Source of the DNA: a virus
Direction: 5' to 3' (one strand)
Virus record (IMG/VR): IMGVR_UViG_3300018420_004001
Coordinates: 1 to 40,205 of that record
Length of the DNA stretch: 40,205 nucleotides
The position numbers were made by a program, and so were the translations under genes. Positions 5,288-31,296 of the stretch are shown here, in pieces. How positions within the stretch are numbered: position 1 is the first letter of the stretch; each line of letters starts with the position of its first letter. The notes below the pieces were generated by a model. That model was given only the letters and a program-made list of their open reading frames with translations, was not told the DNA's origin and did no database searches.

Positions 5288-5292
5288 AATAG

Positions 5293-5300: not shown

Positions 5301-5313
5301 CTCTTTATCTATA

Positions 5314-8564: not shown

Positions 8565-8572
8565 GTTAAATA
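8565..8572 (+). promoter_or_regulatory. Possible late-type box at the left end of the radical SAM island
   Basis: Plus strand GTTAAATA lies eight bases before the ATG at 8581, resembling but not matching NATAAATA. It is the only promoter-like element seen between the divergent blocks on the plus strand. Confidence 0.25.
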
Positions 8573-9561
8573 TGTTTATAATGAATGATTTTACTCTTAT
8601 TCCGTTCCAAAACATTGTAAAGTTCGGCCAAAAAACTATGCTAGATCAACCTTTATTCAATGTTAGTTGGATACTTGGTCGCTTTTGCAATTACAGTTGT
8701 AGTTACTGTTGGCCATATGCAAGAACGGATAAACCAGATCATCAAGAACTAGATGTCTACAAAAATACGATAGATGAAATTAAACGCCAGGCAAGAGATA
8801 ATGGATTTACTGAATTCCATTTTAGTTTTAGTGGAGGCGAGCCAACAGCGTACAAACACTTTGGAGAGCTTATAGAGCATTACTGTAGTGATACAGAAGC
8901 ACCTTACCAAAGTATACATATTACCACTAATCTATCTCCAGGTAGCAAATGGTGGAACAGATGGCTAGAAGCAACGAGTAAATTACAACGCAGAAGTATT
9001 ACTGCTAGTTTCCATTCTGAGTTTGCAAAGGAGCAAGAGTTTGGAGACAAATGTTTACAACTTATGGCTGACGGTGTATTAGTTACAATCAATCAAGTAA
9101 TGGTTCCTCACCATTTTGACGAGTATTATGAAAGGTGCAAACGATTTTCAGAAAGGGGTATTAATGTAACACTTAAACCACAAAGCGATCCAACTGCTAG
9201 TTTTATTGTAGATGGATATACTGTGAAACAACACTTAATGATGCAAGAACAATTTCCACAACACATAAAAGGTGAACAAGTTATGCAAATGTATTTTGAA
9301 GATCACAAAGGTAACGATTACGGATTGGATCAAGCAGAAAGAATGAACGCATTTGACTTCAATAAGTTTAAAGATTGGAATTGCGCAGCAGGGTATCAAA
9401 GTTGCGTTATAAGGGGGGTGGAAGTTAAGAGAGCATATAGTTGTGCGGAAGAGCCTTTAGGCACGCTTACAGACGGTTTTACGCTGTTTAAAGCACCATC
9501 TAAATGCATTACTAGCACCTGTGTAAGTTCTGCAGACAGTAAAATACCAAAATCAAGATGA
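8572..9561 (+). CDS. Radical SAM enzyme 1 (short type with C-terminal cysteine cluster)
   Basis: The 329-residue protein has the 4Fe-4S/SAM motif CNYSCSYC (Cys 39, 43, 46) and the SAM-binding SGGEP (residues 87-91). The C-terminal 60 residues hold further cysteines (WNCAAG, YSCAEEPLG, SKCITSTC), laid out like a SPASM/twitch auxiliary cluster. Family members cleave SAM to a deoxyadenosyl radical, often to modify peptides. It shares its architecture with the proteins at 13113 and 19731. The start is ATG 8572 or the in-frame ATG 8581; the latter leaves MNDFTLIPF as N-terminus. Its stop overlaps the next start as ATGA. Substrate unknown. Confidence 0.85.
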   Translation: MFIMNDFTLIPFQNIVKFGQKTMLDQPLFNVSWILGRFCNYSCSYCWPYARTDKPDHQELDVYKNTIDEIKRQARDNGFTEFHFSFSGGEPTAYKHFGELIEHYCSDTEAPYQSIHITTNLSPGSKWWNRWLEATSKLQRRSITASFHSEFAKEQEFGDKCLQLMADGVLVTINQVMVPHHFDEYYERCKRFSERGINVTLKPQSDPTASFIVDGYTVKQHLMMQEQFPQHIKGEQVMQMYFEDHKGNDYGLDQAERMNAFDFNKFKDWNCAAGYQSCVIRGVEVKRAYSCAEEPLGTLTDGFTLFKAPSKCITSTCVSSADSKIPKSR

Positions 9562-10163
9562 AAATAGATATACAAGATATAAAATTTTGGATGGATGCTA
9601 TTCGCAACAGCGATGACAGAAGTCGAACACTTGAAAGTTTTTGGGGAGGACAACTTCAATCCAAAACTTGGTTAATAGAATCTCTTGAAAGAAAATCACG
9701 TATTGCAAATGCATCAGTTATTATTTTTGGTGGATGGAATGGTGTACTTGCTAGTATGTTGTTTAACAGTGAAATAGGAATAAAACATATTACAAGTGTA
9801 GATATTGATCCTGTTTGCGAAGAAATAGCAAGAACAATGAATAAGCGACAAGAAATGGAAGGCAAGTTTGTTGCTGTTACAGAAGATATGTGTAACTTCC
9901 ATTACGACAAAAAACCTGACATAGTTATTAATACAAGTTGTGAACATCTGACCAAAGCACAATATAAAAAATGGTTGCAAAATGTTCCTAAAGATTGTAA
10001 AATAGTACTACAAAGTAATGATTATAAAGAACTAGATGAACACGTAAATTGTGTATCATCTTTAGCAGCATTTAAAAAAAGCAGTGGCTTATCTTCATAT
10101 ATGGTTGAGGATGAGTTACAATTACAAAAGTATATAAGATTTATGCTTATTGGACACAAGTAA
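9558..10163 (+). CDS. SAM-dependent methyltransferase-like protein (class I Rossmann fold)
   Basis: 201 residues. The SAM-binding glycine loop appears as VIIFGGWNGVLAS (residues 54-66), a variant of the usual GxGxG. It is followed by the acidic ribose-binding motif TSVDIDPVCEE and, after a strand, DIVINTSCEHL in the motif IV position. This order is that of class I methyltransferases, but the GGWNG loop means the catalytic step is inferred. The GGWxG form is used in a few nicotianamine-synthase-like and phage proteins. It sits between two radical SAM genes with ATGA and TAATG junctions. It may methylate a product of the same pathway. Confidence 0.65.
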   Translation: MKIDIQDIKFWMDAIRNSDDRSRTLESFWGGQLQSKTWLIESLERKSRIANASVIIFGGWNGVLASMLFNSEIGIKHITSVDIDPVCEEIARTMNKRQEMEGKFVAVTEDMCNFHYDKKPDIVINTSCEHLTKAQYKKWLQNVPKDCKIVLQSNDYKELDEHVNCVSSLAAFKKSSGLSSYMVEDELQLQKYIRFMLIGHK

Positions 10164-11161
10164 TGTATAACATAGATCAAATCAAATCAGTTCACCTTGA
10201 AGTGACATCTAAGTGTCAAGCAAAGTGCCCTATGTGTCCTCGCAGAATACAAGGCGGACCGCTCCTTGATACTTTATATCTTGAAGAAATAGATTTAGGC
10301 ACTTTTGTTAATTGGTTTCCAAGAGACTTTGTAAAACAGTTAGATGAATTGAATATGTGTGGTAATTTAGGAGATCCTATAATTGCAACAGACACTTTAG
10401 AAATATACAGATATCTTAGAGAAACCAATCCTATAATGCATTTACAAATGCATACTAACGGCAGTGCAAGGTCTATAGATTGGTGGAAAGAATTAGCAAG
10501 TTTGAATGTGCAAGTTGTGTTTGGTATAGATGGTTTAGAAGACACTCACTCTCTTTATAGAGTAAACACAGACTTTAACAAAATAATAAAAAATGCAACA
10601 GCATTTATACAAGCAGGTGGAGATGCTCGTTGGGATATGTTAGTGTTCAAACATAATGAACACCAAGTTAGTAAATGTGAACAGATGTCAAAAGAATTAG
10701 GCTTTACACATTTCTATCAAAAACACACAAGTAGATTCAGAGACGGTAAACTAGATGTTATAGATGATAATTACAATATAACACATACTTTGTATCCAAC
10801 TACGCATAGTGATAAAAACAGTGCAGGAGTTGAAAAAGCAAAACAAGATGTGTTACCTAACATCACTTGTAAAGCACAAAAATATAACCAAATATATGTT
10901 GCTGCTAACGGCGGTGTAAGTCCTTGCTGTTGGTTAGATTTAGAATGGGTGCCGCAGCATAGTTTTTCTCGTATAGATTATATGAGCAAAGTTAAAGAAT
11001 ATCCTAATCTAAATAATAAAAGTCTTAGCGATATATTTGCAAGTGGCTTTTTTAGCAAAATATCAAGTTGCTGGTCAACTACAGGTTTGAAAGAATGTAC
11101 AAGGCAGTGCGGCAACTTTGATAAATTAAATAAACAGTTTGTAGGGATACCAAATGAGTAA
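10163..11161 (+). CDS. Radical SAM/SPASM enzyme 2
   Basis: 332 residues. The cluster motif is very N-terminal, SKCQAKCPMCPRR (Cys 18, 22, 25). The usual GGEP strand is replaced by NMCGNLGDPI, a GxxGDP form seen in a phage/cyanobacterial subgroup. HTNGS and FGIDGLED follow in the expected barrel strands. The C-terminal 100 residues hold a SPASM-like set: CKAQKYNQIYVAANGGVSPC, CWL, then ECTRQCGNF at the end. It is closely similar in layout to the minus-strand protein at 20695-21699, including DGLED and a DARWDMLVFKHN segment (there LARWRMLVFEHN). The two are evidently paralogues. Confidence 0.87.
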   Translation: MYNIDQIKSVHLEVTSKCQAKCPMCPRRIQGGPLLDTLYLEEIDLGTFVNWFPRDFVKQLDELNMCGNLGDPIIATDTLEIYRYLRETNPIMHLQMHTNGSARSIDWWKELASLNVQVVFGIDGLEDTHSLYRVNTDFNKIIKNATAFIQAGGDARWDMLVFKHNEHQVSKCEQMSKELGFTHFYQKHTSRFRDGKLDVIDDNYNITHTLYPTTHSDKNSAGVEKAKQDVLPNITCKAQKYNQIYVAANGGVSPCCWLDLEWVPQHSFSRIDYMSKVKEYPNLNNKSLSDIFASGFFSKISSCWSTTGLKECTRQCGNFDKLNKQFVGIPNE

Positions 11162-12470
11162 AACGTTTTGCCCGCTACCTTGGATACATATGGCGACTAG
11201 GCCTAATGGTGATGTGAGAGTTTGCTGTACAGCAAATGCAAGTGGTGCTGGCCCGGAAGATAATAAGACTGCAGGACTTGTAAAGAAAGACGGTATTGCT
11301 ATGAACTTGAGAGACCATACTATTGAAGAAGTATGGAATAGTGAACATATGCGTAACACAAGACTGCAAATGTTAAATGGTGAAGTACCTGTAAGTTGCA
11401 CAAAATGCTTTGATGAAGAAAGTAAAGGTGTAGTGAGCAAACGTCAATGGGAAACACGTGAATGGGAAGGAAAAATTGATATGAAAAACCTTGTAGATAA
11501 AACACAAGAAGATGGTAGTTTGGAGGTTGATATTCCTTACTTTGATTTACGCTTAGGAAATGTATGTAACCTAAAATGTGTAATGTGTTCGCCGCACGAT
11601 AGTTCAAGTTGGATTAAGGATTGGAGAAGTCAACAACCTAATTACAAAAATCCTATTCTAGCAAGTGATCAAGATTGGGATCAAAACTTTGATTACACTT
11701 GGTACAAGAAGGGAAGTTTTATTGAAAGTATGATGCAGCAAAGTCATAACATTCAGCAGTTATATTTTGCTGGCGGTGAGCCATTAATGATTCCCGAGCA
11801 TTGGAAAATATTACAAGAGCTAATAGCAGATGGTCACGCAAAAAATATTAAGTTAAGATATAACACCAATGGACACCCTCCTAGTATGAGAAAGGCTGTT
11901 AACTATTGGAATCAGTTTAAAGAAGTTGTTGTAAATTTTAGTATGGATGGAACTGAACGTGTAAACAATTACATAAGACATCCAAGTGTATGGAGCGATC
12001 AACTTGATGCATTCTATTACATTACACAAGAACTAGATAAAAATCATCAAGTTAATATTGCTTGTGCTGTACAAGCACTTAATGCACTTGACTTAACAAA
12101 TTTTGTAGAATGGTCAATACAAGCAAATCAAATTAATAATAAAAGAACACATATGGCTGCACCTTTTATTAATACACATTTTGTATATCTACCAAGTTAT
12201 ATGAATATTAAAGTATTGCCTATAGAAATTAAAAACAAGGTGCGTAGAAATATCGAAGACTTTCTAATTAGGCATTCAAATGACAAGTACTTCAATGATC
12301 ATCCTATGGGCAGACAGCGTTGGGAAGGTATAATTAAATTTATGTACGCAGAAGATTGGAGTCATAAATTACCTGCATTAGTAGAATATTTAGACAGTTG
12401 TGATAAAACAAGAGGGACTGACTGGAGAGAAACATTTCCAGAGTTAGCGGAAAGTATAGATGGACAATAA
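11154..12470 (+). CDS. Radical SAM enzyme 3 with N-terminal twitch domain
   Basis: 438 residues in the N-Twi-rSAM architecture, where the auxiliary cluster domain precedes the radical SAM barrel. N-terminal cysteines: FCPLPWIHM (Cys 6), VRVCCTAN (24, 25) and SCTKC (82, 85). The SAM cluster is NVCNLKCVMC (138, 142, 145) and the SAM-binding AGGEP is at 206-210. RYNTNG and VNFSMDG mark later strands. This arrangement is found mainly in marine bacteria and phages and is associated with uncharacterised peptide or small-molecule modification. It overlaps the previous gene by eight bases and the next by 11. Paralogues lie at 13998, 17824 and 21732. Confidence 0.88.
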   Translation: MSKTFCPLPWIHMATRPNGDVRVCCTANASGAGPEDNKTAGLVKKDGIAMNLRDHTIEEVWNSEHMRNTRLQMLNGEVPVSCTKCFDEESKGVVSKRQWETREWEGKIDMKNLVDKTQEDGSLEVDIPYFDLRLGNVCNLKCVMCSPHDSSSWIKDWRSQQPNYKNPILASDQDWDQNFDYTWYKKGSFIESMMQQSHNIQQLYFAGGEPLMIPEHWKILQELIADGHAKNIKLRYNTNGHPPSMRKAVNYWNQFKEVVVNFSMDGTERVNNYIRHPSVWSDQLDAFYYITQELDKNHQVNIACAVQALNALDLTNFVEWSIQANQINNKRTHMAAPFINTHFVYLPSYMNIKVLPIEIKNKVRRNIEDFLIRHSNDKYFNDHPMGRQRWEGIIKFMYAEDWSHKLPALVEYLDSCDKTRGTDWRETFPELAESIDGQ

Positions 12471-13116
12471 AGAAATAGAAAGAGCATTACGTTGGCAAAG
12501 TCTAGTAAATCTAGGTAACCAAGTCAAACTTAAATGGAGCATAGATCATTATGCTGTTGAAAAACAATTAGAACAGTTTAAAGACAATTGGTGTCCGTAT
12601 AATGCTAAAAAGGATACACACAATAACAGATGGGGATTACCTATTACTAGTCACACAGGTGATGTTATGGACAATTATCATCTTAACAGTTTTGGTCATA
12701 TGCAAAAATATCACGATGTAGAAATGAAGGAAGAAAACTTCAATACACCTACAGACGTATATCATAAAATACCAGAACTTAAAAAAATAGTTGATGTGTT
12801 TTATCCTGACATAGGCCGTGTACATTTAGTACGTGTAGATCAAGGAGGATTCTTTCCTCCACATAGAGATTTTCACGGTACTAGTCCAGAGTATTTTAGA
12901 TTGTTAGTTGTATTTGGACGTTGTAGTCCAGAAAATTATGTACAACTTATCGATGGAAAGCCTTTGTATCCAGAAGCAGGATATGTGTACTTTACAAACT
13001 TTCAATTAGATCATAGTGTGTTTAGTTTTAGTGATAATTTGTACAGTCTTATTTTAACAGTGAAACTAAATGAGCGTACACAACAACTAATATTAGATAA
13101 CACGATGGCAGAATGA
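12460..13116 (+). CDS. AspH-like 2OG-Fe(II) oxygenase 1 of the island
   Basis: 218 residues. The facial triad is visible as PPHRDFH (His 135, Asp 137) and LDHSVFSF (His 185), with the beta-strand GYVYFTNFQ before the distal histidine. Aspartyl/asparaginyl beta-hydroxylase-like enzymes hydroxylate side chains of peptides or free amino acids. The arginine expected about ten residues after the distal histidine is not obvious (FSDNLYSLILTV follows), so 2OG binding may differ. It lies between two radical SAM genes with short overlaps. Confidence 0.72.
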   Translation: MDNKEIERALRWQSLVNLGNQVKLKWSIDHYAVEKQLEQFKDNWCPYNAKKDTHNNRWGLPITSHTGDVMDNYHLNSFGHMQKYHDVEMKEENFNTPTDVYHKIPELKKIVDVFYPDIGRVHLVRVDQGGFFPPHRDFHGTSPEYFRLLVVFGRCSPENYVQLIDGKPLYPEAGYVYFTNFQLDHSVFSFSDNLYSLILTVKLNERTQQLILDNTMAE

Positions 13117-14018
13117 AGTTAATATATCAAGATACATCAAAAGAAAATTGGTTTTTAGTTAGTTGGACACTTAGCAATAAGTGTAACTATCGTTGTTCCT
13201 ATTGTCCTGAGCATTTACATAATGGTAGTACAGGCCAACCTAGGTGGGATACTGTTGAAAGATTCGTCAAAAATTTTACAGTACCCGGTAAAGATATTTG
13301 TTATAGACTAAGCGGTGGTGAACCTACATACTGGAAACATTTCATTGACCTTGCTAAACTTGTAAAAGAACAAGGGCATACTTTTAGTTTTCTTACAAAT
13401 GGTAGTAGAGAAATAGAATACTATAAAGAAATAAGCCAATACACAGATGGTTATATTATTTCATATCATAATGAATATGCTAACTTACAACACATAAAAG
13501 ACATTGTAAAAGTAAGTGATTGTCCTGTGTTTATAAATCTAATGCTTTCTCCTGATAACTTTGATGAAATGTTTGACATCGCAGAAGAAATTTATTTTAG
13601 TTCAGACAATGTAAGTATTTGGCCAAAAATTATTTTAGATAAATCCAATATAGATGCAATTACAAATACGCCTGCAAACTATAACAAAATACAATTAGAA
13701 ACAATCGACAACTGGCCATTCTTTAGAAAGTTACCTGATGCTAATTTACATAGAGGTGAACTTTTGTTAGATGAAAAACCTGTTACAGCAAACAATTTAA
13801 TAACTAACAATCAAAATACATTTTACGGTTGGAAGTGTTGGGCAGGATTACATATGATCAATGTAGATATGTGGGGCAACATATACAGAGCAGATTGTAA
13901 AGAGGGCGGAGCATTAGGCAATATAGAACGTTACAAGTTGCCTAAAGAAACAATTCAATGTGGCAAAGCAGTATGTGCTTGTCTAAGTGATATCTACTTA
14001 CGTAAAGAGACTGTCTAG
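13113..14018 (+). CDS. Radical SAM enzyme 4 (short type)
   Basis: 301 residues. Cluster motif NKCNYRCSYC (Cys 24, 28, 31); SAM-binding LSGGEP around residues 66-71; FLTNGS follows. The C-terminal end is YGWKCWAG, ADCKEGGALGNIE, IQCGKAVCACLSD. This glycine/cysteine pattern is shared with the proteins at 8572 and 19731 and looks like a twitch cluster. The 3' end overlaps the convergent minus-strand gene at 13998 by 21 bases, so both strands are coding there. It is the last gene of the first plus-strand block. Confidence 0.85.
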   Translation: MKLIYQDTSKENWFLVSWTLSNKCNYRCSYCPEHLHNGSTGQPRWDTVERFVKNFTVPGKDICYRLSGGEPTYWKHFIDLAKLVKEQGHTFSFLTNGSREIEYYKEISQYTDGYIISYHNEYANLQHIKDIVKVSDCPVFINLMLSPDNFDEMFDIAEEIYFSSDNVSIWPKIILDKSNIDAITNTPANYNKIQLETIDNWPFFRKLPDANLHRGELLLDEKPVTANNLITNNQNTFYGWKCWAGLHMINVDMWGNIYRADCKEGGALGNIERYKLPKETIQCGKAVCACLSDIYLRKETV

Positions 14019-15083
14019 TTCAGGGCAAACGTCAAGTACATTTGTACCACGCAATTTATCAACTTTATTTGTAAAATCAATAAACTGTTCAAGTTCAGCA
14101 GGGCGCGATGAATGTCTGTATCCTGTTCCTTCAAGTATATGTTCAGGAAGTATTTGTGGATTCAAGTAAGCAGGTGTTGTAACAACATTGTTTACATATA
14201 ATTCATAGTGTGGCTTTTTAATTTTAAAGAACCAGTCTACAATATCTTTTACGTGGCACACATTGTATGTCATAATAGTGCCTGCAAAAATTAGTCTATC
14301 CATTTTATCTAAATGCTGTAAGTTATCTACTAGTTGTTCGAAAGGAAAGTTATCACCACCCCTAATGTATTCGTATAACTTGCCTGTGCCTTCAATACTA
14401 ATATGCCATTTAGTTTCTTTAAATTGATGAGCTAATTCGTCAAACTCTAAATCTACAACAGTACCATTAGTGCTAATATCAAGTGTAATATTTTTTGCAA
14501 GATCAAGTTCAATAAGTTTTTGCATAATTTGTTTGTTAGCAGGTTCCATATATGGTTCACCTCCCTTGATATTAACATACTGTAAGTTCTTAAAATATTC
14601 AGGATATGCAAACAAATTATCTACAATGTCAGGTGAAAGATTTCTGTAACCAAAGTCTGGTTCGTGAATAGGTCTTTGTACACCCATTTTATCAAGTTTT
14701 AAATCTTCCTTAATCCAAGCAGTACTGTTTACACCACTACACATTCTGCACTTAAGATTACACAAATTACTCATATTAAATTCTAAGAAATATATGTCAT
14801 TTCGTAAGTTGCTCTCTGGTTTTAGCATAGGATTTAGAACTTGCTCAAAAAACTTTCTTCTGCTATGTCCGTTTGTATTTTCTTTAAGTGTACATTGAGA
14901 ACAATTACTAGGAAACTGACCTTGAGCAATAGTACGCTGAGTGTGTATCAATCCAGGATTACGGAATATAGTTGGTAGATCTTCTCTAAGCAGGTTACCG
15001 TGACGTCCTGTATACACACAGTCAGGTACAACATCTCCGTTGAATCTTATACTAAGAGCGTGCCAAGGTGCAAAGCACTTCAT
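13998..15083 (-). CDS. Radical SAM enzyme 5 with N-terminal twitch domain
   Basis: 361 residues, N-Twi-rSAM architecture. Twitch cysteines: MKCFAPWHAL (Cys 3), PDCVY (22) and NCSQC (61, 64). SAM cluster NLCNLKCRMC (108, 112, 115); KGGEP at 173-177; DISTNG and ISIEGTG in later strands. A GAGG ribosome site precedes the ATG, and the gene overlaps the upstream propeller gene by 32 bases. It is the last gene of a six-gene minus-strand block reading from 19718. No C-terminal cluster domain is present; the end (KLRGTNVLDVCPELDSLF) resembles that of the other N-Twi paralogues (RGTDWRETFPEL, MRPWEEY). Confidence 0.88.
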   Translation of the reverse strand: MKCFAPWHALSIRFNGDVVPDCVYTGRHGNLLREDLPTIFRNPGLIHTQRTIAQGQFPSNCSQCTLKENTNGHSRRKFFEQVLNPMLKPESNLRNDIYFLEFNMSNLCNLKCRMCSGVNSTAWIKEDLKLDKMGVQRPIHEPDFGYRNLSPDIVDNLFAYPEYFKNLQYVNIKGGEPYMEPANKQIMQKLIELDLAKNITLDISTNGTVVDLEFDELAHQFKETKWHISIEGTGKLYEYIRGGDNFPFEQLVDNLQHLDKMDRLIFAGTIMTYNVCHVKDIVDWFFKIKKPHYELYVNNVVTTPAYLNPQILPEHILEGTGYRHSSRPAELEQFIDFTNKVDKLRGTNVLDVCPELDSLFT

Positions 15084-16197
15084 AACTCAAATCCTCTTTT
15101 ATACTATACAGGTGGTGCTCCGACGATATTGTGTCATAGCCTATTACACACAGTTTGTCATCAAAAATTATTGGCCTTCCAAAAAGGGTGTTGCCAAAGT
15201 AAATGCTGTCAAGTTCATCTCCATCTTTACTTATTTTAAAAATAGGACAACTTGGTGTGCCACTTGGAATAAAATATGCATACCCTTTGTACTCTATACC
15301 ACATCTATATCTATACTTTCCACCGTGCGTTATACCTATATCAAATTGTTTACTTTGTTTTGTAACTGTATTGAATACAAGTCCCCAGTTGCTTTCTCCG
15401 TGTTCTGTGCCATAGGGTAATGCTACAATATTGTCCCCTACAAGTACACCACCATTATATTTTTTAGCAAAGTCTACACCTTTTATTTCGTGGTAAGTTG
15501 CTTTGTTTGTATCTGTATTAAATTCAACAATTGTGTTTAGACCTTTAGTTTCTCCAAATGGCAAACTGTATAAAGTATTACCTTTTACAATAATATCACT
15601 ATACTTTCTAGTAATGTTAGGATCAACTTCTAGTTCGTAACTTGTAAATTTTGTTCCGTCAAAACTTAGTAAACTTGTATATCCTGGTTGATCGCCTCTT
15701 GGCATACTCCAATAACGCCCATTACAAAACACTGTACCCATATGTAATTTTTTGCCTTTGTGTGGTAAAGGGTGTATTGACAGTTTGCCGTTGTTAATAT
15801 AGATAGCATTATTTGTTCCTTCGTAGCCTAAAGGAAAACTAAAAGCAGAATTCCATTCGTAATTTATTGCTACACTATAGAATTGTCCTTTACCTGTAAA
15901 TGGTAATTTATGCTTTATAATTGCTCCTGGCTTCATTTCAGTAACAATATTTAGATCATCGTATATACCATAGGGTATGAACCAAGCACTGTCTCCTAGC
16001 ACTGCCACAGCATTTGTTTTACTTGTGCTAGGTGGCAAATCTAAATTCATATACTTTCCATCTAACCATACATCGCTGTAACTTTTACACAAGTCCGTAG
16101 CAAATGGAGGACTTAGTAACTTGCCTTGGTATTCAGCAAGTAACAGATGCTTAATCTTAGTTTCTTTGTAGTAATCTTGAAACTCTTTATATGCCAT
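15052..16197 (-). CDS. Beta-propeller-like protein 1
   Basis: 381 residues with about seven copies of a roughly 45-50 residue unit, each marked by an aromatic/hydrophobic pair, proline and glycine: LLSPPF, WFIPYG, SFPLGY, WSMPRG, SLPFGE, ALPYGT, FIPSGT. Such regularly spaced (F/W)xxPxG blades indicate a kelch/propeller-like fold, used for binding rather than obvious catalysis. No signal peptide is apparent, so it should be cytoplasmic. It has a paralogue immediately upstream in the same operon. Embedded between a radical SAM gene and a kinase-like gene, it may be a scaffold or carry the substrate; that is inference. Confidence 0.65.
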   Translation of the reverse strand: MAYKEFQDYYKETKIKHLLLAEYQGKLLSPPFATDLCKSYSDVWLDGKYMNLDLPPSTSKTNAVAVLGDSAWFIPYGIYDDLNIVTEMKPGAIIKHKLPFTGKGQFYSVAINYEWNSAFSFPLGYEGTNNAIYINNGKLSIHPLPHKGKKLHMGTVFCNGRYWSMPRGDQPGYTSLLSFDGTKFTSYELEVDPNITRKYSDIIVKGNTLYSLPFGETKGLNTIVEFNTDTNKATYHEIKGVDFAKKYNGGVLVGDNIVALPYGTEHGESNWGLVFNTVTKQSKQFDIGITHGGKYRYRCGIEYKGYAYFIPSGTPSCPIFKISKDGDELDSIYFGNTLFGRPIIFDDKLCVIGYDTISSEHHLYSIKEDLSYEVLCTLARS

Positions 16198-17410: not shown

Positions 17411-17837
17411 ATAATTCTCCAAATGCTGATTGTAGGTCTGCTTTTAATTTTGTATGTATAGTTTCTTTATCGTAAATGCCTACGTTGTCCCAATCTACCA
17501 TATGCATAACATCTCCGTCAACTATAATATTACTTAACACCCAATCTCCGTGTGCATATGGAAGTGTGCTATTAATTTGGTTAACACAAAACTTACACAC
17601 CTCATCACAAAACTCTGGTGTATGTTTTAATTTACTTGCAGGCTGTCCTAGATATCTTGTGAAATCTATATAATTTTCTCCAACAAATTTAACATAACCA
17701 GGTTGCACCTTGTTTAGTATTTCAGCGTGTTGTTGCATCCATACTGAATCTTTATCATACCAAAACTTTCTAATGGTGTCACTATCTTTGAGATATACAG
17801 CACGTTTCTTTTCTGTGTTTTGCTTAATCAAGTCCAT
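17391..17837 (-). CDS. Minimal APH/choline-kinase-like phosphotransferase
   Basis: Only 148 residues, against about 260-300 for aminoglycoside phosphotransferases. The catalytic loop is intact: YAHGDWVLSNIIV (His 96, Asp 98, Asn 103), followed by the metal-binding MVDWDNVG (Asp 115, Asp 117). The N-terminal ATP-binding lobe is greatly reduced: VYLKDSDTIRKFWYDKD keeps a possible lysine but no glycine loop. It may phosphorylate a small molecule or be a degenerate binding protein. It overlaps the radical SAM gene upstream by 14 bases and the propeller gene downstream. Short versions of this kind have been seen in other marine phages, to my recollection. Confidence 0.7.
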   Translation of the reverse strand: MDLIKQNTEKKRAVYLKDSDTIRKFWYDKDSVWMQQHAEILNKVQPGYVKFVGENYIDFTRYLGQPASKLKHTPEFCDEVCKFCVNQINSTLPYAHGDWVLSNIIVDGDVMHMVDWDNVGIYDKETIHTKLKADLQSAFGELFDPSSI

Positions 17838-19724: not shown

Positions 19725-19730
19725 CTCCGT

Positions 19731-21711: not shown

Positions 21712-21731
21712 ACTAGAAAAGTGCTACTATA

Positions 21732-23799: not shown

Positions 23800-24479
23800 A
23801 GTATTGGCAAGAGCATAACAACGAATATAAGTTTGAATATCCTGAACAGTTCGATCCTAAATGGATAGTGATGGAAAGCGGCTGGCCATTTTTTAAATTA
23901 AGTGCTTTAGACAATCAGCCTTGGAAAGAAATGTATGCAGAAGCCGAAGCATTATCAGATAAGTTTCACGTGCATAGAGATGAGTATGGAAAAGGTTGGC
24001 GCAGTTTAACATTGCACGGATTAAATGAGGATACACAAACACTTAACAGTTATGGTGACAGACAAAAAACTATAAAAGAATTAGATTGGACTTGGGTAGC
24101 AATGGAATGTCCTATTACTAAGAAGTTTTTGACAGACGTATGGCCAGCAGAGTATTTGAATCGTGTGAGATTTATGTTACTAGAGCCAGGCGGATATATA
24201 CTGCCACACCAAGATAGAGCAGACGATGAAAAACGTTTAAGCGTTTGTAATATAAGTTTAAACAATCCTGATCATTGTGAGTTTGTAATGAAGGACCAAG
24301 GGCGTGTACCGTTTGATGATAATGGCAGTGCATTTTTAATGGACATAAGCAATGTACATAGTGTATGGAATAGAAGTAACAAGCCACGTATACATATGAT
24401 TATTCATTATGAACTAGGCAGACGTATTAGAGATTTTTTCTATGTGCTTAGACAAAGTTATTATACTAATAGAGGTTAA
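23784..24479 (+). CDS. AspH-like 2OG-Fe(II) oxygenase 3 of the island
   Basis: 231 residues. Triad in LPHQDRADD (His 142, Asp 144) and SNVHSVWNRS (His 192), with Arg 202 (KPRIHMIIHYE) in the 2OG-binding place. MLLEPGGYILPHQD is the classic leading strand of aspartyl/asparaginyl hydroxylases. The N-terminal region contains GWRSLTLHGL. This is the member of the island closest to canonical AspH. It overlaps the previous gene by 16 bases and abuts the next (TAA ATG). Confidence 0.82.
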   Translation: MEQLLKYWQEHNNEYKFEYPEQFDPKWIVMESGWPFFKLSALDNQPWKEMYAEAEALSDKFHVHRDEYGKGWRSLTLHGLNEDTQTLNSYGDRQKTIKELDWTWVAMECPITKKFLTDVWPAEYLNRVRFMLLEPGGYILPHQDRADDEKRLSVCNISLNNPDHCEFVMKDQGRVPFDDNGSAFLMDISNVHSVWNRSNKPRIHMIIHYELGRRIRDFFYVLRQSYYTNRG

Positions 24480-25955
24480 ATGAAAGACTGGAATAGCATA
24501 ACTGTTGATAGATATTGGGAACAAATAAAAGTTTCTAATGATATTGCTATAGGTATACTAGATACACGTAGAGATATAGATAGTGAAATAGTAAGTAAAC
24601 GTTCGTTTGATATGACTTACTTTTATATTAACAGAATGGTAAAGATGGGCCTAAGCAAGTATGTAGGATCATATACAACTGTACAAGAAATACTAGAACG
24701 TGCTGCAAAAGAAAACAAAAAATACTGTATGGTTGCTGCACAAGGTTTATTGCTATATAGAGGTCCAAGTCTAGTTACACAAAGTTTAACATACGCAGAA
24801 AAGAATCCTAACTTTTTTGTTGTAGGACATATAATGGATAAAAAGAAACAGCACTATCTTACTAAAGGTGCTTATCCAGGATTACATAGACAGTATCTAT
24901 TTGTTAATGTTGCAAAGTGGATAGAACTTGGTAAACCTGTATTTGACGAAATGGGAGTGTTCCAAGATCGTAAACCTATATTACAGAATTACGAAATGAG
25001 CGCAAACACTATGAACAGTAATTATACACCTGCGTGGATACGTAGAGCAGGTGGTACAACTGAATATCCTGTTACCAGCGATGGTAGCAACTGGATTGAT
25101 ATTGCATTACGTAATGATATTGTTATTGAGAATTTAGATAATGATATGCGTGATTGTAAAGTGTATTTGTATCCTTATATAGAAACTAAAAAATTAGAGG
25201 AAGTATGGTATGAAAAAGATGTTGAAAAAATTGATCAGTTATCTAACCAGTCTCAGAAAGCCTGGTTGCGAAAACTCCAATACCAAGAGTACATCGAAAA
25301 AGACAGAGTCTATGTTTTTAACACGGAAACTCTATCTGCTGAAGGAGTAAGAACAGGAGGCAAAACTATTGATCATCTGTTTACTGCTGCTGCTGGATTT
25401 AAGCCTTTAGCAATTCTCAACGCAAACGGATTTAGTAATAGTACAACTGTGCATTACTTCGATTGGTGCGAATCAAGTCTTAACTATAAAAAACATCTTA
25501 TAGAAACTTGGGACGGGTATGACTTAGACAAATGGTTATTAGAACACGACTTAGATTACAACTTCAGTTCTACATACAGAGGAAACTATAAACAATTCTG
25601 GGATCAAGAAGTTGCAGAACACGGAGGTAGTTTAGCATTTCAACGATTGTGGGAACGCTATAGAAACTTAAGGCACGAGTTTTATGTATGTGATATTGTA
25701 AATGAAAGTAAAAAGTTATTTGACGAAATAAACAAATACCACGGCACTAGAGTAATGTGGACAACAAACATTTGGTCAAGTGAAATGCTGCATTGGAACG
25801 TAGAACCTGAAGTATTAGAAATAAAATGGAAACAGTTTGAAGAACAAATCCCAGATGATCTTGTGTTATACGGACACGATTATATTGCTGTGGATATGAA
25901 TTCAAGAGTAAGGGATGGAGTGCAATTAACGCATCCAAAGTATAATGAAAGTTAA
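24480..25955 (+). CDS. Unknown large protein of the oxygenase block, 491 aa
   Basis: I do not recognise this family. The sequence seems to have two halves. Residues 1-210 include NDIAIGILDTRRDID, KYCMVAAQGLLLYRGPSLV and NFFVVGHIMDKKKQHYLTKG, a Rossmann-like or GT-A-like strand pattern without a clear DxD. Residues 270-490 include YIEKDRVYVFNTE, FKPLAILNANGFSNSTTVHY, FDWCESS and TRVMWTTNIWSSEMLHW. No transmembrane segment and no metal motif of known type. It starts directly after the stop of the previous gene and overlaps the next by 11 bases. It is the largest protein of the island, and its position makes it a candidate for the carrier, ligase or transferase that such a tailoring set would need. 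Confidence 0.6.
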   Translation: MKDWNSITVDRYWEQIKVSNDIAIGILDTRRDIDSEIVSKRSFDMTYFYINRMVKMGLSKYVGSYTTVQEILERAAKENKKYCMVAAQGLLLYRGPSLVTQSLTYAEKNPNFFVVGHIMDKKKQHYLTKGAYPGLHRQYLFVNVAKWIELGKPVFDEMGVFQDRKPILQNYEMSANTMNSNYTPAWIRRAGGTTEYPVTSDGSNWIDIALRNDIVIENLDNDMRDCKVYLYPYIETKKLEEVWYEKDVEKIDQLSNQSQKAWLRKLQYQEYIEKDRVYVFNTETLSAEGVRTGGKTIDHLFTAAAGFKPLAILNANGFSNSTTVHYFDWCESSLNYKKHLIETWDGYDLDKWLLEHDLDYNFSSTYRGNYKQFWDQEVAEHGGSLAFQRLWERYRNLRHEFYVCDIVNESKKLFDEINKYHGTRVMWTTNIWSSEMLHWNVEPEVLEIKWKQFEEQIPDDLVLYGHDYIAVDMNSRVRDGVQLTHPKYNES

Positions 25956-27063
25956 AAATTATAATAAAGAAGAGTTCGATAAATTTTGTGAACAACTTAA
26001 TATCAATGATGCAACTGTTGAAGATACAGGTGAATATTTTATTTGTATTGATAACCACTGGGAAAAGAACAATAGATTTTTAAAGAAACATAATAATGTT
26101 CTACATTTAGGATTTGATGATGTTGCTGAAGATCAATACAAGTCCGTTGCTGATAACGATGATGATTTTGTAGTTGGTAGAGCATATGCAAGGGCAATGA
26201 CAACAGCACAGGCTGAAGAATGTTTTAACTTTATAGATAGTGTTCCAGATAATAGTAGTATAAGGATTTACTGCACACACGGAGAATCACGAAGTATTGC
26301 AATAAAAGATTTTATCGATAGTTTCCGCAATAACATACCTACACAGGGCGGCAACAGACACGTAAGACAATTGTTAGACAATGTTCTGGCTGTAAAAGGC
26401 AAAGCAATTGAAGGTAAAAAGCGATATATTAGAAAATATGACGAAGCCAATCTAGGCTGGAAAATAAAGAAATGGTTTCCTGTAGACATAGAAAAACTGA
26501 GAGAATGGTTTACAACACTTGAAACCGAATACGGGGATTGGAAATTTGTTGTAGGAGAAAATGAACACGTATGGCAAACTCCTATTATTGATCCTACAGG
26601 TAAGACTGGACACAAGTTGAAATATGACACAGCATATTATACATTATGTTGGAATGATGATAGTCCAGGGCCTAAACCATTTGAACAAGGAAATGCCAAA
26701 CCTGAATATAGAGACAACGATAATGACGAACTTAATCCACGCAAATGTTTTTCAGGATATGGTTTAGATATTGTAAAGAATTTGCCAGTGCGTAGTAAAA
26801 AGTGGTTGGTAACAATGCACAGTCCGGGTACTGAACTTATTACACATCAAGATAGCCCAGATAAAATACGTGTGCATATTCCTATATATACAAACGCACA
26901 AAGTAATTGGGTAATAGGCGGAGAAGAATATCATATGGAAGCAGGTTGGGCCTATATTGTAAATACCACAGTGCCTCATAGTGTTGCAAACAAAGGCGAC
27001 GGATATAGAATACATCTTTATGGTAAAGTATGGACAGACGATATAAAGGAACTTAATATATGA
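25945..27063 (+). CDS. CX5R phosphatase-like domain fused to an AspH-like 2OG-Fe(II) oxygenase
   Basis: 372 residues in two parts. Residues about 30-160 end in IRIYCTHGESRSIAI, which contains a CX5R loop (Cys 110 to Arg 116) followed by Ser. That is the form of dual-specificity/tyrosine phosphatase active sites (HCxxGxxRS), with a preceding strand as expected. Residues 170-372 are an oxygenase: TELITHQDSPD (His 301, Asp 303), VHIPIYTNAQSNWVIGG, GWAYIVNTTVPHSVAN (His 345) and Arg 355. The aspartate general acid of the phosphatase domain cannot be placed with confidence. I know of no described protein with this fusion. Confidence 0.72.
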   Translation: MKVKNYNKEEFDKFCEQLNINDATVEDTGEYFICIDNHWEKNNRFLKKHNNVLHLGFDDVAEDQYKSVADNDDDFVVGRAYARAMTTAQAEECFNFIDSVPDNSSIRIYCTHGESRSIAIKDFIDSFRNNIPTQGGNRHVRQLLDNVLAVKGKAIEGKKRYIRKYDEANLGWKIKKWFPVDIEKLREWFTTLETEYGDWKFVVGENEHVWQTPIIDPTGKTGHKLKYDTAYYTLCWNDDSPGPKPFEQGNAKPEYRDNDNDELNPRKCFSGYGLDIVKNLPVRSKKWLVTMHSPGTELITHQDSPDKIRVHIPIYTNAQSNWVIGGEEYHMEAGWAYIVNTTVPHSVANKGDGYRIHLYGKVWTDDIKELNI

Positions 27064-27665
27064 AAGTAGTAATTACAGGTAGTAAGAAGTCTGGTATTAA
27101 ACCAGGTATACATAAAATGAATGCCTGGCTGCACGAATACTTTTCACAGTTTGATCTTGTTCAAATTAGTAGAACAACAGGATATGATTTTGATACTGAC
27201 TACGACAAAGCAGTAGAAGTAGCAAGGACTGCTGATATATTTGTAAACAGTGCTTGTGTAAAAGACTATCAATTAAAGTTTTTGAATGATGTATATGGAC
27301 ACGTTCCTACAATAATATGCTTAGGAAGTATTGCAGGCGATATGTTTGGTGCACCACAGAAGTATGATAACCATCCTAACTATCCTGAAGTGAAACACGA
27401 ACTAAAAGAAAGATGCAAATGGATACAACTAGAAAAAAAGCAAGGTGTAAAAACAAATCTTTTACATTTAAATATCACAGAAACTAAAGAAGTAGAGTGG
27501 AATACAGAGGGATTAGACAAAAATCAATTGTTTAATACATTAGACTTTTGGTTGAACAATCAATACATATCAAACATTGGTTATAAGTTTTGGTCAGAAA
27601 ACTACGGCGAGCAAAAACTTGCAAAAGTAAAAGGAGTGGTAGACCACTTCAAACAGAGGAAATAA
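27060..27665 (+). CDS. SDR-like NAD(P)-binding protein
   Basis: 201 residues. N-terminal VVITGSKKSGIKPGIHK is a TGxxxGxG-like dinucleotide loop with insertions. ADIFVNSACV fits the NNAG strand position. YPEVKHELK supplies a YxxxK pair, the catalytic residues of short-chain dehydrogenases. Overall it is shorter than typical SDRs (about 250), lacking the substrate-loop end. It would reduce or oxidise a small substrate, or be a binding remnant. ATGA-type junction upstream; downstream its TAA overlaps the hemE ATG (TAATG). Confidence 0.6.
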   Translation: MKVVITGSKKSGIKPGIHKMNAWLHEYFSQFDLVQISRTTGYDFDTDYDKAVEVARTADIFVNSACVKDYQLKFLNDVYGHVPTIICLGSIAGDMFGAPQKYDNHPNYPEVKHELKERCKWIQLEKKQGVKTNLLHLNITETKEVEWNTEGLDKNQLFNTLDFWLNNQYISNIGYKFWSENYGEQKLAKVKGVVDHFKQRK

Positions 27666-28600
27666 TGAAAACTATATTACAGCGAACTATAAAAGACAAA
27701 GAGAAAAACTTATATCCTGTTTGGTTAATGCGCCAAGCCGGAAGGTATATGCCAGAGTATATGCATATTAAAAACAACAGTAATGGATTCTTAGATATGG
27801 CTCTTACACCAAGTAAAGCAAAAGAAATTACAATGCAGCCTATTAAAGAATTTGATATGGACGCTGCTATTATCTTTTCTGACATACTTATTATTCCCTA
27901 TGCTATAGGACAAGAACTAGATTATACTCCTGCACCAGTACTAGGAACATTCAATAAAGATATGTTAAACACAGATATGACAACATTTGTAGAAAGATGT
28001 CAACCTGTATATGATGCAATTAAACAAACTAGACAAGAACTAGATAGTAACAAAAGTCTAATTGGATTTGCAGGTGCTCCTTACACACTTTGCAAGTATA
28101 TGACAAAAACAAAAGACCAAGAAGTTGTTGACAAACTAGTGCCTTATATCATAGAACATTTAGTAAAACAAATAGAAGCAGGTTGTGATACTGTACAAAT
28201 ATTTGACAGTTGGGCAGGAGATTTATCAGTAGAAGAATTAGACAACTTATGTTACTCACCAACAACACGTATAGTAGATGCAATTAGAGATCTTCATCCA
28301 GAAGTTGGTATTGTTGCTTTTCCAAGATTAATAGGTAAATGCATTAATGAATTTGCTGCATTGGTTAAGCCTGATTGTGTAAATTTAAGTGACGACATAC
28401 CTGTTGAAGATGTTATTACTGACGTAGTTTTACAAGGTGGTATACCTATAGATGTATTGCTAGATGATAGTGACATCACACCAATGTTGCAAAAAATGAA
28501 AGACAAATCATATGTAGTGAACCTAGCACACGGAGTAAACAAAGAAACTCCTGTAGAAAATGTAAGACACTTTGTGGAAACTGTAAAGAAATTTAGATGA
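27665..28600 (+). CDS. hemE: Uroporphyrinogen decarboxylase homologue
   Basis: HemE removes four carboxyl groups from uroporphyrinogen III to give coproporphyrinogen. Seen: PVWLMRQAGRYMPEY (residues 18-32, both arginines present), FSDIL with Asp 73, FAGAPYTL, QIFDSWAG (178-184) and LAHGVNKETPVENV with His 289 near the C-terminus. The usual QGNLDP loop is altered to QGGIPI. At 311 residues it is 30-40 shorter than bacterial HemE, with deletions spread through the middle. The frame runs upstream to 27590, but ATG 27665 forms a TAATG junction and begins at the normal HemE N-terminus. A homologue with changed substrate (URO-D superfamily includes methyltransferases) cannot be excluded. I know of no well-described phage hemE. 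Confidence 0.86.
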   Translation: MKTILQRTIKDKEKNLYPVWLMRQAGRYMPEYMHIKNNSNGFLDMALTPSKAKEITMQPIKEFDMDAAIIFSDILIIPYAIGQELDYTPAPVLGTFNKDMLNTDMTTFVERCQPVYDAIKQTRQELDSNKSLIGFAGAPYTLCKYMTKTKDQEVVDKLVPYIIEHLVKQIEAGCDTVQIFDSWAGDLSVEELDNLCYSPTTRIVDAIRDLHPEVGIVAFPRLIGKCINEFAALVKPDCVNLSDDIPVEDVITDVVLQGGIPIDVLLDDSDITPMLQKMKDKSYVVNLAHGVNKETPVENVRHFVETVKKFR

Positions 28601-29187
28601 TAAGAGAAACAAAAAAACTTAATACAACTGTAGATCTCAGTGAACTGCAAAATTTTTACTGCCAGTTAGAAACTGAGTACGAACACTTGTGTTGGCGATA
28701 TCAGGATAATGTAAGTGAAGGTGTAGGAGGACACGTACTTGATAATGCCTATGGCTGGGCATTGCAAAGCAACTTAGAAGATTTGTCAGTACCTTGTCCG
28801 CCCTATAATGTAACAGAAGAACGCAAAATGCATCCGTATAGAGATACTGAAATGATGTTCGGTATTGCTAAAAGACTACAAGAAGCATTTCCTTTTGCAC
28901 ATCAATTTAGTGTAGTTGTACACCCGCCAGGCACATTTATAAATTTTCACAGTGATAGTGACAATTACCTCAAAGTACATATTCCAATTCTAACAAACAA
29001 CAAAGCATACTTCCAATTTCAACCTATGCGTAGATTCGTATTACCAGCAGACGGAAGTATGGTTCTTGTAAATACAAATATCAAACACGGTACACACAAC
29101 GAGGGTGAAACAGATAGAGTGCATTTATACTTTAAAATACCCGTTGACAAAGAACAACAAGTGTTAGATAAAGAAGGTACAATATGA
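28597..29187 (+). CDS. AspH-like 2OG-Fe(II) oxygenase 4 of the island
   Basis: 196 residues. Triad in INFHSDSDN (His 118, Asp 120) and IKHGTHNEGE (His 164), with Arg 174 (TDRVHLYF) as 2OG ligand. KVHIPILTNNKAYFQF and GSMVLVNTN are the same strands as in the proteins at 23020, 25945 and 29471. It is the shortest of the set and lacks an N-terminal extension. ATGA overlap with hemE before and with a membrane protein after. The position directly behind hemE invites the idea that its substrate is tetrapyrrole-related, but nothing in the sequence shows that. Confidence 0.82.
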   Translation: MIRETKKLNTTVDLSELQNFYCQLETEYEHLCWRYQDNVSEGVGGHVLDNAYGWALQSNLEDLSVPCPPYNVTEERKMHPYRDTEMMFGIAKRLQEAFPFAHQFSVVVHPPGTFINFHSDSDNYLKVHIPILTNNKAYFQFQPMRRFVLPADGSMVLVNTNIKHGTHNEGETDRVHLYFKIPVDKEQQVLDKEGTI

Positions 29188-29474
29188 TATTTTGGATAGG
29201 ATTCACTGTAATGGTACTAAATGAAGGGTTTGTGATTATGAGACACGTACACCCTTGGTTTGCTAACAAGCGAGATCAATTGATTTCGACATATGGTGAT
29301 AAATGGAAAAAGTTTCACGCAACATTAGATTACGTTTGGATAGGCGGAGTAAGTTTAGGAATACTAATTGACTTTTCTAATTGGAAACTTTACGCAACTG
29401 TTTTAGCAATCTTTTGGGGAACTGTAGCCGTAGGTGTATACCTACCTCTTTTGATCAAAAGGTTACGTAAATGA
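29184..29474 (+). CDS. Small integral membrane protein, 96 aa
   Basis: Three hydrophobic segments: about residues 2-18 (IFWIGFTVMVLNEGFVIM), 49-63 (YVWIGGVSLGILIDF) and 68-90 (KLYATVLAIFWGTVAVGVYL), with a basic C-terminus (LLIKRLRK). It has no recognisable domain. ATGA overlaps both sides place it firmly in the oxygenase operon, where it is the only membrane protein. It could anchor the pathway at the inner membrane or export a product; both are guesses. Confidence 0.65.
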   Translation: MIFWIGFTVMVLNEGFVIMRHVHPWFANKRDQLISTYGDKWKKFHATLDYVWIGGVSLGILIDFSNWKLYATVLAIFWGTVAVGVYLPLLIKRLRK

Positions 29475-30178
29475 GAGTAATTCAAAATTACAATCCTAAA
29501 GATATAACAATGGACTTGTTATACAACGATGACAGTTGGGGTGCATTAGAACTTAATGTTGATCTTGATGTTGATGCATTACAGATGTATTACTTTGACA
29601 TCAAGAGCAAACACAGTTATCAGTATTTCAACTTCCAAGACTTTCCAGATAGACTTACTATTGAAGTTAGTAAACAATATATGGAATTAGGATACTGCGG
29701 TTATTACTGCGGGCCAATAGGTGGATATACACTTGCTTGGCCTACAGTACGTTATGAACCTTTACCACCTCCTAGTCAAGCAAATGTTGATATGTTTCCT
29801 GAAACACTTGATCCTGAATTCTATGAGAAGTGTAATGTACTACCAAAGTTTAGATTTGGTTATATGAACACATTGTTAGATATGTTAGGAGAAGATAGTT
29901 TCAAACAGTGTATCATTACAGAACACGGACCGACTGCAACTATCAAAACACATAAAGATAGCAATGCTAAAAAATTACACATACCACTTGCAACAAATGA
30001 ACAAGCAGTGTTTACATTTGGTGAACATAGAGAACTTAAATTTAATATGCGTGTAGGAAAAATTTATATATTAAACACAAGTGCATTTCACGGCACAGAA
30101 AACTTTGGCGAAACAACCAGAGCACACTTTATAACAAGAGTAGATGAAACACGCATACAAGATATTATAGCATTATGA
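29471..30178 (+). CDS. AspH-like 2OG-Fe(II) oxygenase 5 of the island
   Basis: 235 residues. Triad in IKTHKDSNAKK (His 161, Asp 163) and SAFHGTENFGE (His 207), with Arg 217 (TTRAHF). The N-terminal NYNPKDITMDLLY and SWGALELNVDLDVDAL match the start of the protein at 23020, so these two form a pair. An insertion near residues 75-115 is Gly/Pro/Tyr/Cys-rich (GYCGYYCGPIGGYTLAWP). It lies just before the halogenase gene with an ATGA overlap. Confidence 0.82.
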   Translation: MRVIQNYNPKDITMDLLYNDDSWGALELNVDLDVDALQMYYFDIKSKHSYQYFNFQDFPDRLTIEVSKQYMELGYCGYYCGPIGGYTLAWPTVRYEPLPPPSQANVDMFPETLDPEFYEKCNVLPKFRFGYMNTLLDMLGEDSFKQCIITEHGPTATIKTHKDSNAKKLHIPLATNEQAVFTFGEHRELKFNMRVGKIYILNTSAFHGTENFGETTRAHFITRVDETRIQDIIAL

Positions 30179-31296
30179 AAGTAACAATAGTAGGTGGCGG
30201 AACAGCAGGTTGGATGACAGCAGCATATTTGTCTAAAAAGACAGATTGGAATATTACTGTGGTTGCCAGCGAAGATATACCTATTATAGGAGTGGGTGAA
30301 AGCACACTTCCAAGTCTTTATGACTTTATACAAGAGTGTGGTCTTACAGAACAAGATTTATTTGAACATACAACAGCAGTTAGAAAATATACTATTAGAC
30401 ATCTAGACTGGAATAAAAATGGAGATTGGTATCATCATTTTTGTTTTAATGAAACCCAACACGATGAACAATTGCAGTGGATGAAAAATTATGAAAGACC
30501 AAATGAAAAATGGCGACACGCATATCACATAGATGCATTTAAGTTTGGTGCAATGTTGCGTGATAAAGTTGCTATACCAAATGGTGTTGTTGTAGAACAA
30601 AGAACAATAGACAGTATAGATGAAATAGAATCTGATCTAATTATAGACTGCACAGGATTTAACAAATTAACTAAACCTACTAACTGGGTAGATAGTGCTT
30701 TGCCTAATAATAAAGCAGTAGTATGTCCTAGTAATCAAGTTATTAATAAACCTTATACACAAACAACAGCACTTAGTTCGGGTTGGATGTGGACTATAGC
30801 ATTACAAACAAGAACAAGTAATGCATATGTGTTTAGTGACAAACATATTACATATGAACAAGCAAAAGACGAATTTATAAAAAGTTGTCCGTATAAGTTA
30901 GACTTAGACAAACTTAGATACCTCTCTTGGAAAGGAGGATACACTACTACTCCGTTTAGGGAAAACGTTTTAAATATAGGATTGAGTGCAGGATTTTTTG
31001 AACCATTAGAATCTCAGGCTATATGGGCAACACAATATCAAATAGAAATGCTTGTAAGACTAGGATTGAATAAACAGGCTGTTTACAATAAGCAATGGGT
31101 AACAATGATGAAACATATCGAAAGATACTTGTTAGCACATTACACTGCAAGTTCACGCAGGGATAATGATTACTGGAAACAGTTTGATAATATTCTAATG
31201 GTAACTCCTAGTAATGAGAAGTTTAAGATTTTTGATGAGTATAGTTATCGTTGCCTAGCGAACGGTTACGCTCTTCCATATAGGTCAGCACATTAA
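30175..31296 (+). CDS. Flavin-dependent (tryptophan) halogenase homologue
   Basis: Members use FADH2, oxygen and halide to make a chloramine or similar on a lysine and halogenate aromatics. Here: FAD motif VGGGTAGWMTAAYL (residues 6-19), VGESTLPSL (40-48), the catalytic lysine position at Lys 71 (RKYTIRHLDW, aligned eight residues before W79), and the halogenase motif GWxWxIP as GWMWTIA (203-209). EPLES (276-280) keeps the catalytic glutamate, but the next two residues are QA where chlorinating enzymes have TG, the halide-site backbone. At 373 residues it is well short of PrnA/RebH (about 530). A viral halogenase from a cyanophage is known, so the function is possible; halide preference or even activity is open. 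Its 3' end overlaps a convergent gene by 74 bases. Confidence 0.84.
   Translation: MKVTIVGGGTAGWMTAAYLSKKTDWNITVVASEDIPIIGVGESTLPSLYDFIQECGLTEQDLFEHTTAVRKYTIRHLDWNKNGDWYHHFCFNETQHDEQLQWMKNYERPNEKWRHAYHIDAFKFGAMLRDKVAIPNGVVVEQRTIDSIDEIESDLIIDCTGFNKLTKPTNWVDSALPNNKAVVCPSNQVINKPYTQTTALSSGWMWTIALQTRTSNAYVFSDKHITYEQAKDEFIKSCPYKLDLDKLRYLSWKGGYTTTPFRENVLNIGLSAGFFEPLESQAIWATQYQIEMLVRLGLNKQAVYNKQWVTMMKHIERYLLAHYTASSRRDNDYWKQFDNILMVTPSNEKFKIFDEYSYRCLANGYALPYRSAH

Follow-up and report, generated by a model that had tools for sequence, protein, structure and literature searches.

Gene content of the island

We have analyzed a stretch of viral DNA of 40,205 nucleotides (IMG/VR record IMGVR_UViG_3300018420_004001, positions 1-40,205), called here the window, whose positions are used as coordinates throughout. 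It carries an island of about twenty oxidising, halogenating and sugar-related enzymes, adjoined by a tail-fibre gene, that almost certainly encodes a conserved pathway. An earlier note had described a block of overlapping genes at 8572-31296 and had likened its make-up to that of pathways for tailoring peptides or natural products. All the open reading frames (ORFs) that it named were present and correctly placed, and the genes overlap nearly everywhere: no more than 32 of the 22,725 bp of the block lie outside genes, in a single gap that separates 20695 from the divergently oriented 21732. However, the block had been ended too early. The conserved arrangement goes beyond 31296, with GNAT-like and shortened AMP-binding genes (31223-32447), so that it reaches at least 32447, and is followed by a Mtd-type fibre gene (32491). 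The list of members stood as far as it went, but had omitted two beta-propellers, a mini-kinase and the 491-amino acid (aa) protein starting at 24480 (Table 1).

The CxxxCxxC motif is found in all nine radical S-adenosylmethionine (rSAM) proteins, and the three architectures proposed before were recovered by profile searches with PF04055, NF033640 and PF13186. Eight of the nine were above the PF04055 cut-off by hmmscan (33.6-58.6 bits). The remaining one, rSAM9, scored 28.9 bits by hmmscan (cut-off 29.5) and 30.5 bits in the genome scan. Together with rSAM3, rSAM5 and rSAM6 it exceeds the curated cut-off (170 bits) of N_Twi_rSAM (NF033640), a subfamily-level model named by its N-terminal twitch domain only that specifies no substrate. 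Two proteins (rSAM2 and rSAM8) have a C-terminal SPASM domain (PF13186) above cut-off and three (rSAM1, rSAM4 and rSAM7) are short. In the alignment of the rSAM1 family C39, C43 and C46 are invariant, five C-terminal cysteines are conserved and the mean column identity is 72%.

The six AspH-like 2-oxoglutarate (2OG) oxygenases that had been claimed also held up. Four of them (AspH3 to AspH6) were above the curated PF05118 cut-off (22.6 bits) and AspH2 was slightly under it. AspH1 had no Pfam match alone, but its family profile reached the proline hydroxylases 1e5r (E 6e-4) and 4p7w (E 1e-3), and the HxD...H iron triad appears in the family alignment as an invariant HRD motif and a later invariant histidine. 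The CX5R-motif domain fused to AspH4 stands alone in other islands (L158:13547-13972); a stand-alone relative matches only RapZ_C, weakly, and a phosphatase role for it would be a guess. The HemE and halogenase homologues were clear. The latter (Trp_halogenase family) matches PyrH, VirX1, PrnA and RebH and, across 13 sequences, keeps as invariant K71 and E279, which correspond to the catalytic lysine and glutamate of PrnA. The region of its WxWxIP motif reads GWMWTIAL, the motif being variable within the family. The genes labelled as methyltransferase and SDR-like (short-chain dehydrogenase/reductase) are present, with weak family assignments.

Among the members added here, prop1 is confidently modelled as a beta-propeller (Foldseek match Tako8, TMt 0.74). 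A third propeller-like protein of about 415 aa is found directly before the halogenase in 18 islands (L189:13811-15058). The AMP-binding protein has 223 aa and lacks the N-terminal part and the C-terminal domain. The relatives of 24480 found by scanning were all viral (80 loci); none turned up when bacterial and archaeal genome contigs were scanned, and a sequence search of the PDB found nothing. Its model is of moderate confidence. With few exceptions the best fold matches, all of them weak, are to GT-A glycosyltransferases and nucleotidyltransferases, among them a capsid glycosyltransferase of PBCV-1, which makes a GT-A-type glycosyltransferase its probable identity.

Table 1. Features of the island and its border, in window positions.
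Feature	Position	Strand	Evidence
rSAM1, short type	8572..9561	+	PF04055 58.6 bits
Putative methyltransferase, conserved neighbour	9558..10163	+	Methyltransf_25 21.4 bits, weak, under cut-off; recurs in cassette
rSAM2, C-terminal SPASM	10163..11161	+	PF04055 33.6, SPASM 24.3 bits
rSAM3, N-terminal twitch	11154..12470	+	NF033640 408 bits; 134 viral relatives
AspH1, proline-hydroxylase-like 2OG oxygenase	12460..13116	+	family profile to 1e5r/4p7w; invariant H135, D137, H185
rSAM4, short type	13113..14018	+	PF04055 49 bits
rSAM5, N-terminal twitch	13998..15083	-	NF033640 236.5 bits
prop1, beta-propeller	15052..16197	-	AlphaFold pLDDT (predicted local distance difference test) 90.5; Foldseek propellers
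prop2, second propeller-like protein (blade motifs)	16187..17422	-	weak Kelch match; co-inherited with prop1
Mini-kinase, APH type	17391..17837	-	weak APH match; invariant D98/N103/D115 in alignment
rSAM6, N-terminal twitch	17824..18858	-	NF033640 220 bits
Protein without assigned function, only in window-like islands	18855..19736	-	locus comparison
rSAM7, short type, optional	19731..20714	+	PF04055 43.1 bits; in 2 of 27 complete loci
rSAM8, C-terminal SPASM	20695..21699	-	PF04055 40.1, SPASM 29.2 bits
Sole uncovered stretch of block, 32 bp	21700..21731	.	between divergent genes
rSAM9, N-terminal twitch, optional	21732..23027	+	NF033640 211 bits
AspH2	23020..23799	+	PF05118 21.8 bits, cut-off 22.6
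AspH3, most conserved oxygenase	23784..24479	+	PF05118 49.6 bits; invariant H142, D144, H192
24480, island-specific 491-aa protein, probable GT-A-type glycosyltransferase	24480..25955	+	weak Foldseek matches; 80 viral loci
AspH4, N-terminal CX5R-motif domain fused to AspH	25945..27063	+	PF05118 46.2 bits; phrog_5614 over 18-144
SDR-like protein	27060..27665	+	no significant family; label by inspection
HemE, uroporphyrinogen decarboxylase, optional	27590..28600	+	PF01208 234 bits
AspH5	28597..29187	+	PF05118 31.1 bits
Small protein, phrog_31495 (function not assigned)	29184..29474	+	113 bits
AspH6	29471..30178	+	PF05118 32.9 bits
Flavin-dependent halogenase, PrnA/PyrH/VirX1 family	30175..31296	+	PF04820 251 bits; K71, E279 invariant
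GNAT-like acyltransferase	31223..31804	-	conserved position; family label by inspection
AMP-binding core	31776..32447	-	PF00501 72.2 bits over profile 168-331
Tail fibre, Mtd-type N-terminus, bounds island	32491..33957	-	PF18454 26.0 bits, cut-off 26.3; recurrent neighbour

Outside the island, the left arm of the window (438-6625) contains phosphomannomutase-like, KdsA-like, PTPS, 2OG oxygenase and fibre-like genes, that is, sugar metabolism adjoining the island. A complete DnaK (HSP70) gene is found at 37920-39806 (899 bits), in a phage genome.

Recurrence of the cassette and its carriers

The test that the earlier note had set beforehand was whether homologues of these genes occur together in other genomes. 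They do, nearly always in the same order, on dozens of viral contigs. The recurrent order is rSAM1-methyltransferase-rSAM2-rSAM3-AspH1-rSAM4 and then rSAM5-prop1-prop2-kinase-rSAM6-rSAM8-AspH3-24480, with local gains and losses, and it is kept where rSAM3 has 55-61% identity to the window protein. Clustering at 95% identity reduced the 80 loci with 24480 to 38 lineages.

Islands with and without prop1 were called type A and type B, so the counts of prop1 follow from the definition and those of the other genes do not. We compared 27 representatives with complete flanks (20 type A and 7 type B), using a 10-kb flank that undercounts rSAM1 and rSAM2. The genes for prop1, prop2, the AMP-binding protein, AspH5 and AspH6 were present in all 20 type A islands, and in 0, 0, 0, 1 and 1 of the seven of type B. 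The halogenase was found in 16 of the 20 and in none of the seven. The island is accordingly made up of a core and of a module whose genes are passed on together. Type B islands keep the rSAM core, have no propellers and gain NTP-transferase-like and TauD genes, in some cases also a QueC-like gene; one type A island has a UDP-sugar dehydrogenase. HemE and HemC appear in few islands only and the cassette recurs without them. Genes for HemC (porphobilinogen deaminase) and a class III aminotransferase (L168:424-1263; L194:1910-3028) belong to type B islands and make, with the HemE of the window, three unusual phage genes.

In order to estimate selection, we used the ratio of nonsynonymous to synonymous changes (dN/dS) against the relative G008. 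The values were between 0.02 and 0.12 for all the genes in 8572-31296 with a usable estimate, 0.17 for the AMP-binding gene and 0.22 for the GNAT gene, which indicates strong purifying selection on the island genes. The halogenase had no match in G008, and hence this step looks dispensable.

Searches of cultured phages failed to find relatives of four proteins, namely rSAM1, prop1, 24480 and the AMP-binding protein, and at the DNA level the left half of the island had no counterpart there. For rSAM3 and rSAM6 there were only distant matches, in the Vibrio phages K566/K567 and in two unannotated fragments. Judging from their genes, the carriers are giant, uncultured, T4-like, jumbo-related phages of aquatic bacteria, known only from environmental DNA. 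On the 186 kb contig G001, genes for structural proteins and for replication were recognised by inspection as T4-like, and the major capsid protein of this contig is closest (67-71%) to those of jumbo T4-like phages, e.g. Sinorhizobium phage Phosso, Vibrio phage 2.275.O and PA5oct. Phages of about 320-380 kb encode the relatives of a gene that borders the island. The tRNA scans, made on the window and on a set of contigs, were all negative and therefore give no hint about the host. On G001 (L092:2133-7819) a second rSAM pair is located near large fibre-like genes and is followed by genes (46-48 kb) that by eye resembled the GT8 type, a resemblance that Pfam did not confirm.

The search for iron-sulphur (Fe-S) assembly genes covered nine contigs, all with a length of 119 kb or more (118.9 kb being counted as 119). 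An A-type Fe-S carrier was present on six of them and IscU on four, and twice the order carrier-IscU-carrier was found in a row (G019:C1:73428-74440, in the contig of L181, and G023:C1:87125-88137). The presence of these genes, as in a published Tara virus, speaks for an actual use of the rSAM enzymes, and the island in turn gives a reason for Fe-S assembly genes in marine viruses.

What the pathway may act on

The recurrence of the cassette, the intact CxxxCxxC, HxD...H and halogenase Lys/Glu residues, the purifying selection and the Fe-S genes speak for a pathway. As to its target, our preferred but tentative proposal is a glycan or a glycosylated fibre or envelope structure, built or modified by the phage-borne enzymes. 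We favour such a target over a free peptide because elsewhere, namely in K566 and in the Campylobacter phage CP220, the most telling enzymes next to phage rSAM genes are glycosyltransferases. The model of 24480, the NTP-transferase-like, TauD and UDP-sugar dehydrogenase genes and the adjoining fibre point the same way. One co-inherited pathway would make or remodel a decorated glycan or glycosylated protein, likeliest on phage fibres or on the host envelope. Protein 24480 would transfer a sugar, the rSAM enzymes would act on unactivated C-H positions, in the sugar or in the protein next to it, by oxidation, epimerisation or cross-linking, and the AspH enzymes would hydroxylate this target. The mini-kinase, the AMP-binding/GNAT pair and the halogenase might add phosphoryl, acyl and halogen groups, and the propellers might be carriers or scaffolds or belong to what is modified. 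The phage could benefit from an altered adsorption or from the escape from host surface defences.

Several points weigh against a glycan. The NCBIfam search placed none of the island rSAM proteins in a sugar-specific family at cut-off. Protein 24480 has no Pfam match, its model has a mean pLDDT of 65, and Foldseek gave weak matches to it (best E 4e-3, probability up to 0.97), none passing E 0.001. The sugar-transferase domains of CP220 come from record annotation only, since a Pfam search gave none. AspH enzymes and halogenases act mostly on proteins, amino acids and small aromatics; HemE and HemC fit no glycan scheme; and the adjacency of the fibre may reflect merely an insertion hotspot. What speaks for a glycosyltransferase within the island is weak, and the target of the pathway is our inference.

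The main rival, which overlaps with the glycan proposal and to which we give a smaller though still appreciable weight, is a direct, sugar-free post-translational modification in which the side chains of tail fibres, propellers or a host target would be the substrate of the rSAM and AspH enzymes, the halogenase and the kinase. The AspH family includes protein hydroxylases, and AspH1 resembles proline hydroxylases. The profile of rSAM3 reaches the peptide maturase SkfB, a fibre gene adjoins the island, and the genes for both propellers, AspH5, AspH6 and the AMP-binding protein are strictly inherited together (20/20 versus 0-1/7). Yet type B islands keep the rSAM core without propellers, and in other phages glycosyltransferases recur next to rSAM genes. 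A free small molecule (a toxin, a siderophore-like compound or a signal) made during infection seems unlikely. Natural-product clusters commonly have a halogenase, oxygenases, a methyltransferase, a GNAT and an AMP-binding core, but among those island proteins that were searched we recognised no complete non-ribosomal peptide or polyketide synthase, no transporter and no resistance gene, and much of the enzyme is missing from the AMP-binding protein.

The remaining possibilities are less likely. Tailoring, as first suggested, fits the enzymes, but a peptide product does not fit the locus. SPASM and twitch rSAM proteins plus oxygenases are typical maturases of ribosomally synthesised and post-translationally modified peptides (RiPPs), and many weak matches to maturase families were found. 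The precursor gene of a RiPP pathway would nevertheless have to lie at another place in the genome, which we doubt. The absence of a precursor gene noticed before was confirmed in and beside the block, where the uncovered bases leave no room for one, and no small ORF is tied to the island across lineages (one of 62-83 aa is present in 10 loci only). All the NCBIfam maturase equivalogs were far under cut-off for the island rSAM proteins. Hypermodification of phage DNA bases is improbable. Phages are known to hypermodify their DNA, and ThyX and PTPS/QueD-like genes are nearby, besides the QueC-like gene of some type B islands; however, no enzyme of base modification, such as TET/JBP or a deoxynucleoside monophosphate hydroxymethylase, was recognised in the island, and AspH, propellers and halogenase are misfits. 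A supply of tetrapyrroles or cofactors to the host, equally improbable, would account for HemE in the window and for HemC and the aminotransferase in type B, and propellers do occur in heme d1 pathways, but the rarity of both Hem genes speaks against it. Finally, a chimeric assembly, the other refuting condition set in the earlier note, or chance clustering, although the window is a linear fragment, is refuted by the same order on dozens of contigs from different samples.

Comparison with known phage systems

The earlier statement that such an island is undescribed was too strong. Multi-rSAM phages are already known, with 11-12 rSAM genes (PMC2853527, PMC5332604), and there are fibre-halogenase-oxygenase arrays in cyanophages. 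In the literature searched (open-licence papers only) we did not find a conserved cassette that combines an expansion of AspH enzymes with propellers, an adenylation core and a halogenase. What is new here is the conserved combination, including the two beta-propellers, the mini-kinase, half an adenylation domain and the probable GT-A glycosyltransferase. It is possible, if doubtful, that this represents a new class of virus-encoded modification pathway, with a rSAM/SPASM and twitch core and a switchable propeller-AspH-adenylation-halogenase module, that puts a novel chemical group on virions or bacterial envelopes. A pathway of about twenty enzymes kept in order by many aquatic phage lineages must repay its space, and it is a source of many uncharacterised rSAM enzymes and of a halogenase with defined partners. 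The old question of why some T4-like phages have a dozen rSAM genes becomes testable, with K566 and CP220 as cultured entry points.

The T4-like Campylobacter phages CP220 and CPt10 have 11-12 rSAM genes, five of them in one exchangeable module of overlapping genes, and 11 rSAM proteins were counted in the genome of CP220 (PMC2853527). Several rSAM genes in an overlapping block of a T4-like phage are thus common to that module and the island. The SPASM-type proteins of CP220 match the profiles of rSAM2 (E 6e-22 to 1e-16) and rSAM8, while matches to the twitch profiles are weak and the stretches of CP220 examined gave no match to the AspH, propeller, 24480 or halogenase profiles. Its rSAM cluster overlaps two genes annotated with nucleotide-diphospho-sugar transferase domains and also an amidinotransferase, for which there is no Pfam match in the island. 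The T4-like marine virus TARA_ERS488813_N000010 (183 kb) is presented, in the part of the published description dealing with Fe-S gene content, as having 12 rSAM genes and an A-type Fe-S carrier (PMC5332604). Likened by this description, it is probably the same kind of phage as the carriers of the island.

In the cultured Vibrio phages K566/K567, the island VPK566_0302-0314 has several N-terminal twitch rSAM genes among overlapping genes, as in the window. In K566 they alternate with GT8 and GT4-like glycosyltransferases, and the profiles of the window island found no AspH, halogenase or propeller there. This island replaced another one at the same place, and its authors name a glycosyltransferase and lipid A genes (PMC12028318). 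The other half of the chemistry appears in the cyanophage Syn10, in the array that is the source of VirX1 (L204:7986-17042), with two tandem halogenases about 30% identical to that of the island and at least six 2OG/JmjC oxygenases, mostly annotated as hypothetical. These oxygenases are of PF13759, PF13640 and JmjC types, and no rSAM match to the island profiles was found. The array is located downstream of genes that include large fibre-region proteins, labelled as fibre from position and size, so that a fibre gene adjoins both the window island and the cyanophage array. The window island looks like the join of two themes known apart, rSAM enzymes with sugar transfer on one side and fibre-linked halogenases with oxygenases on the other.

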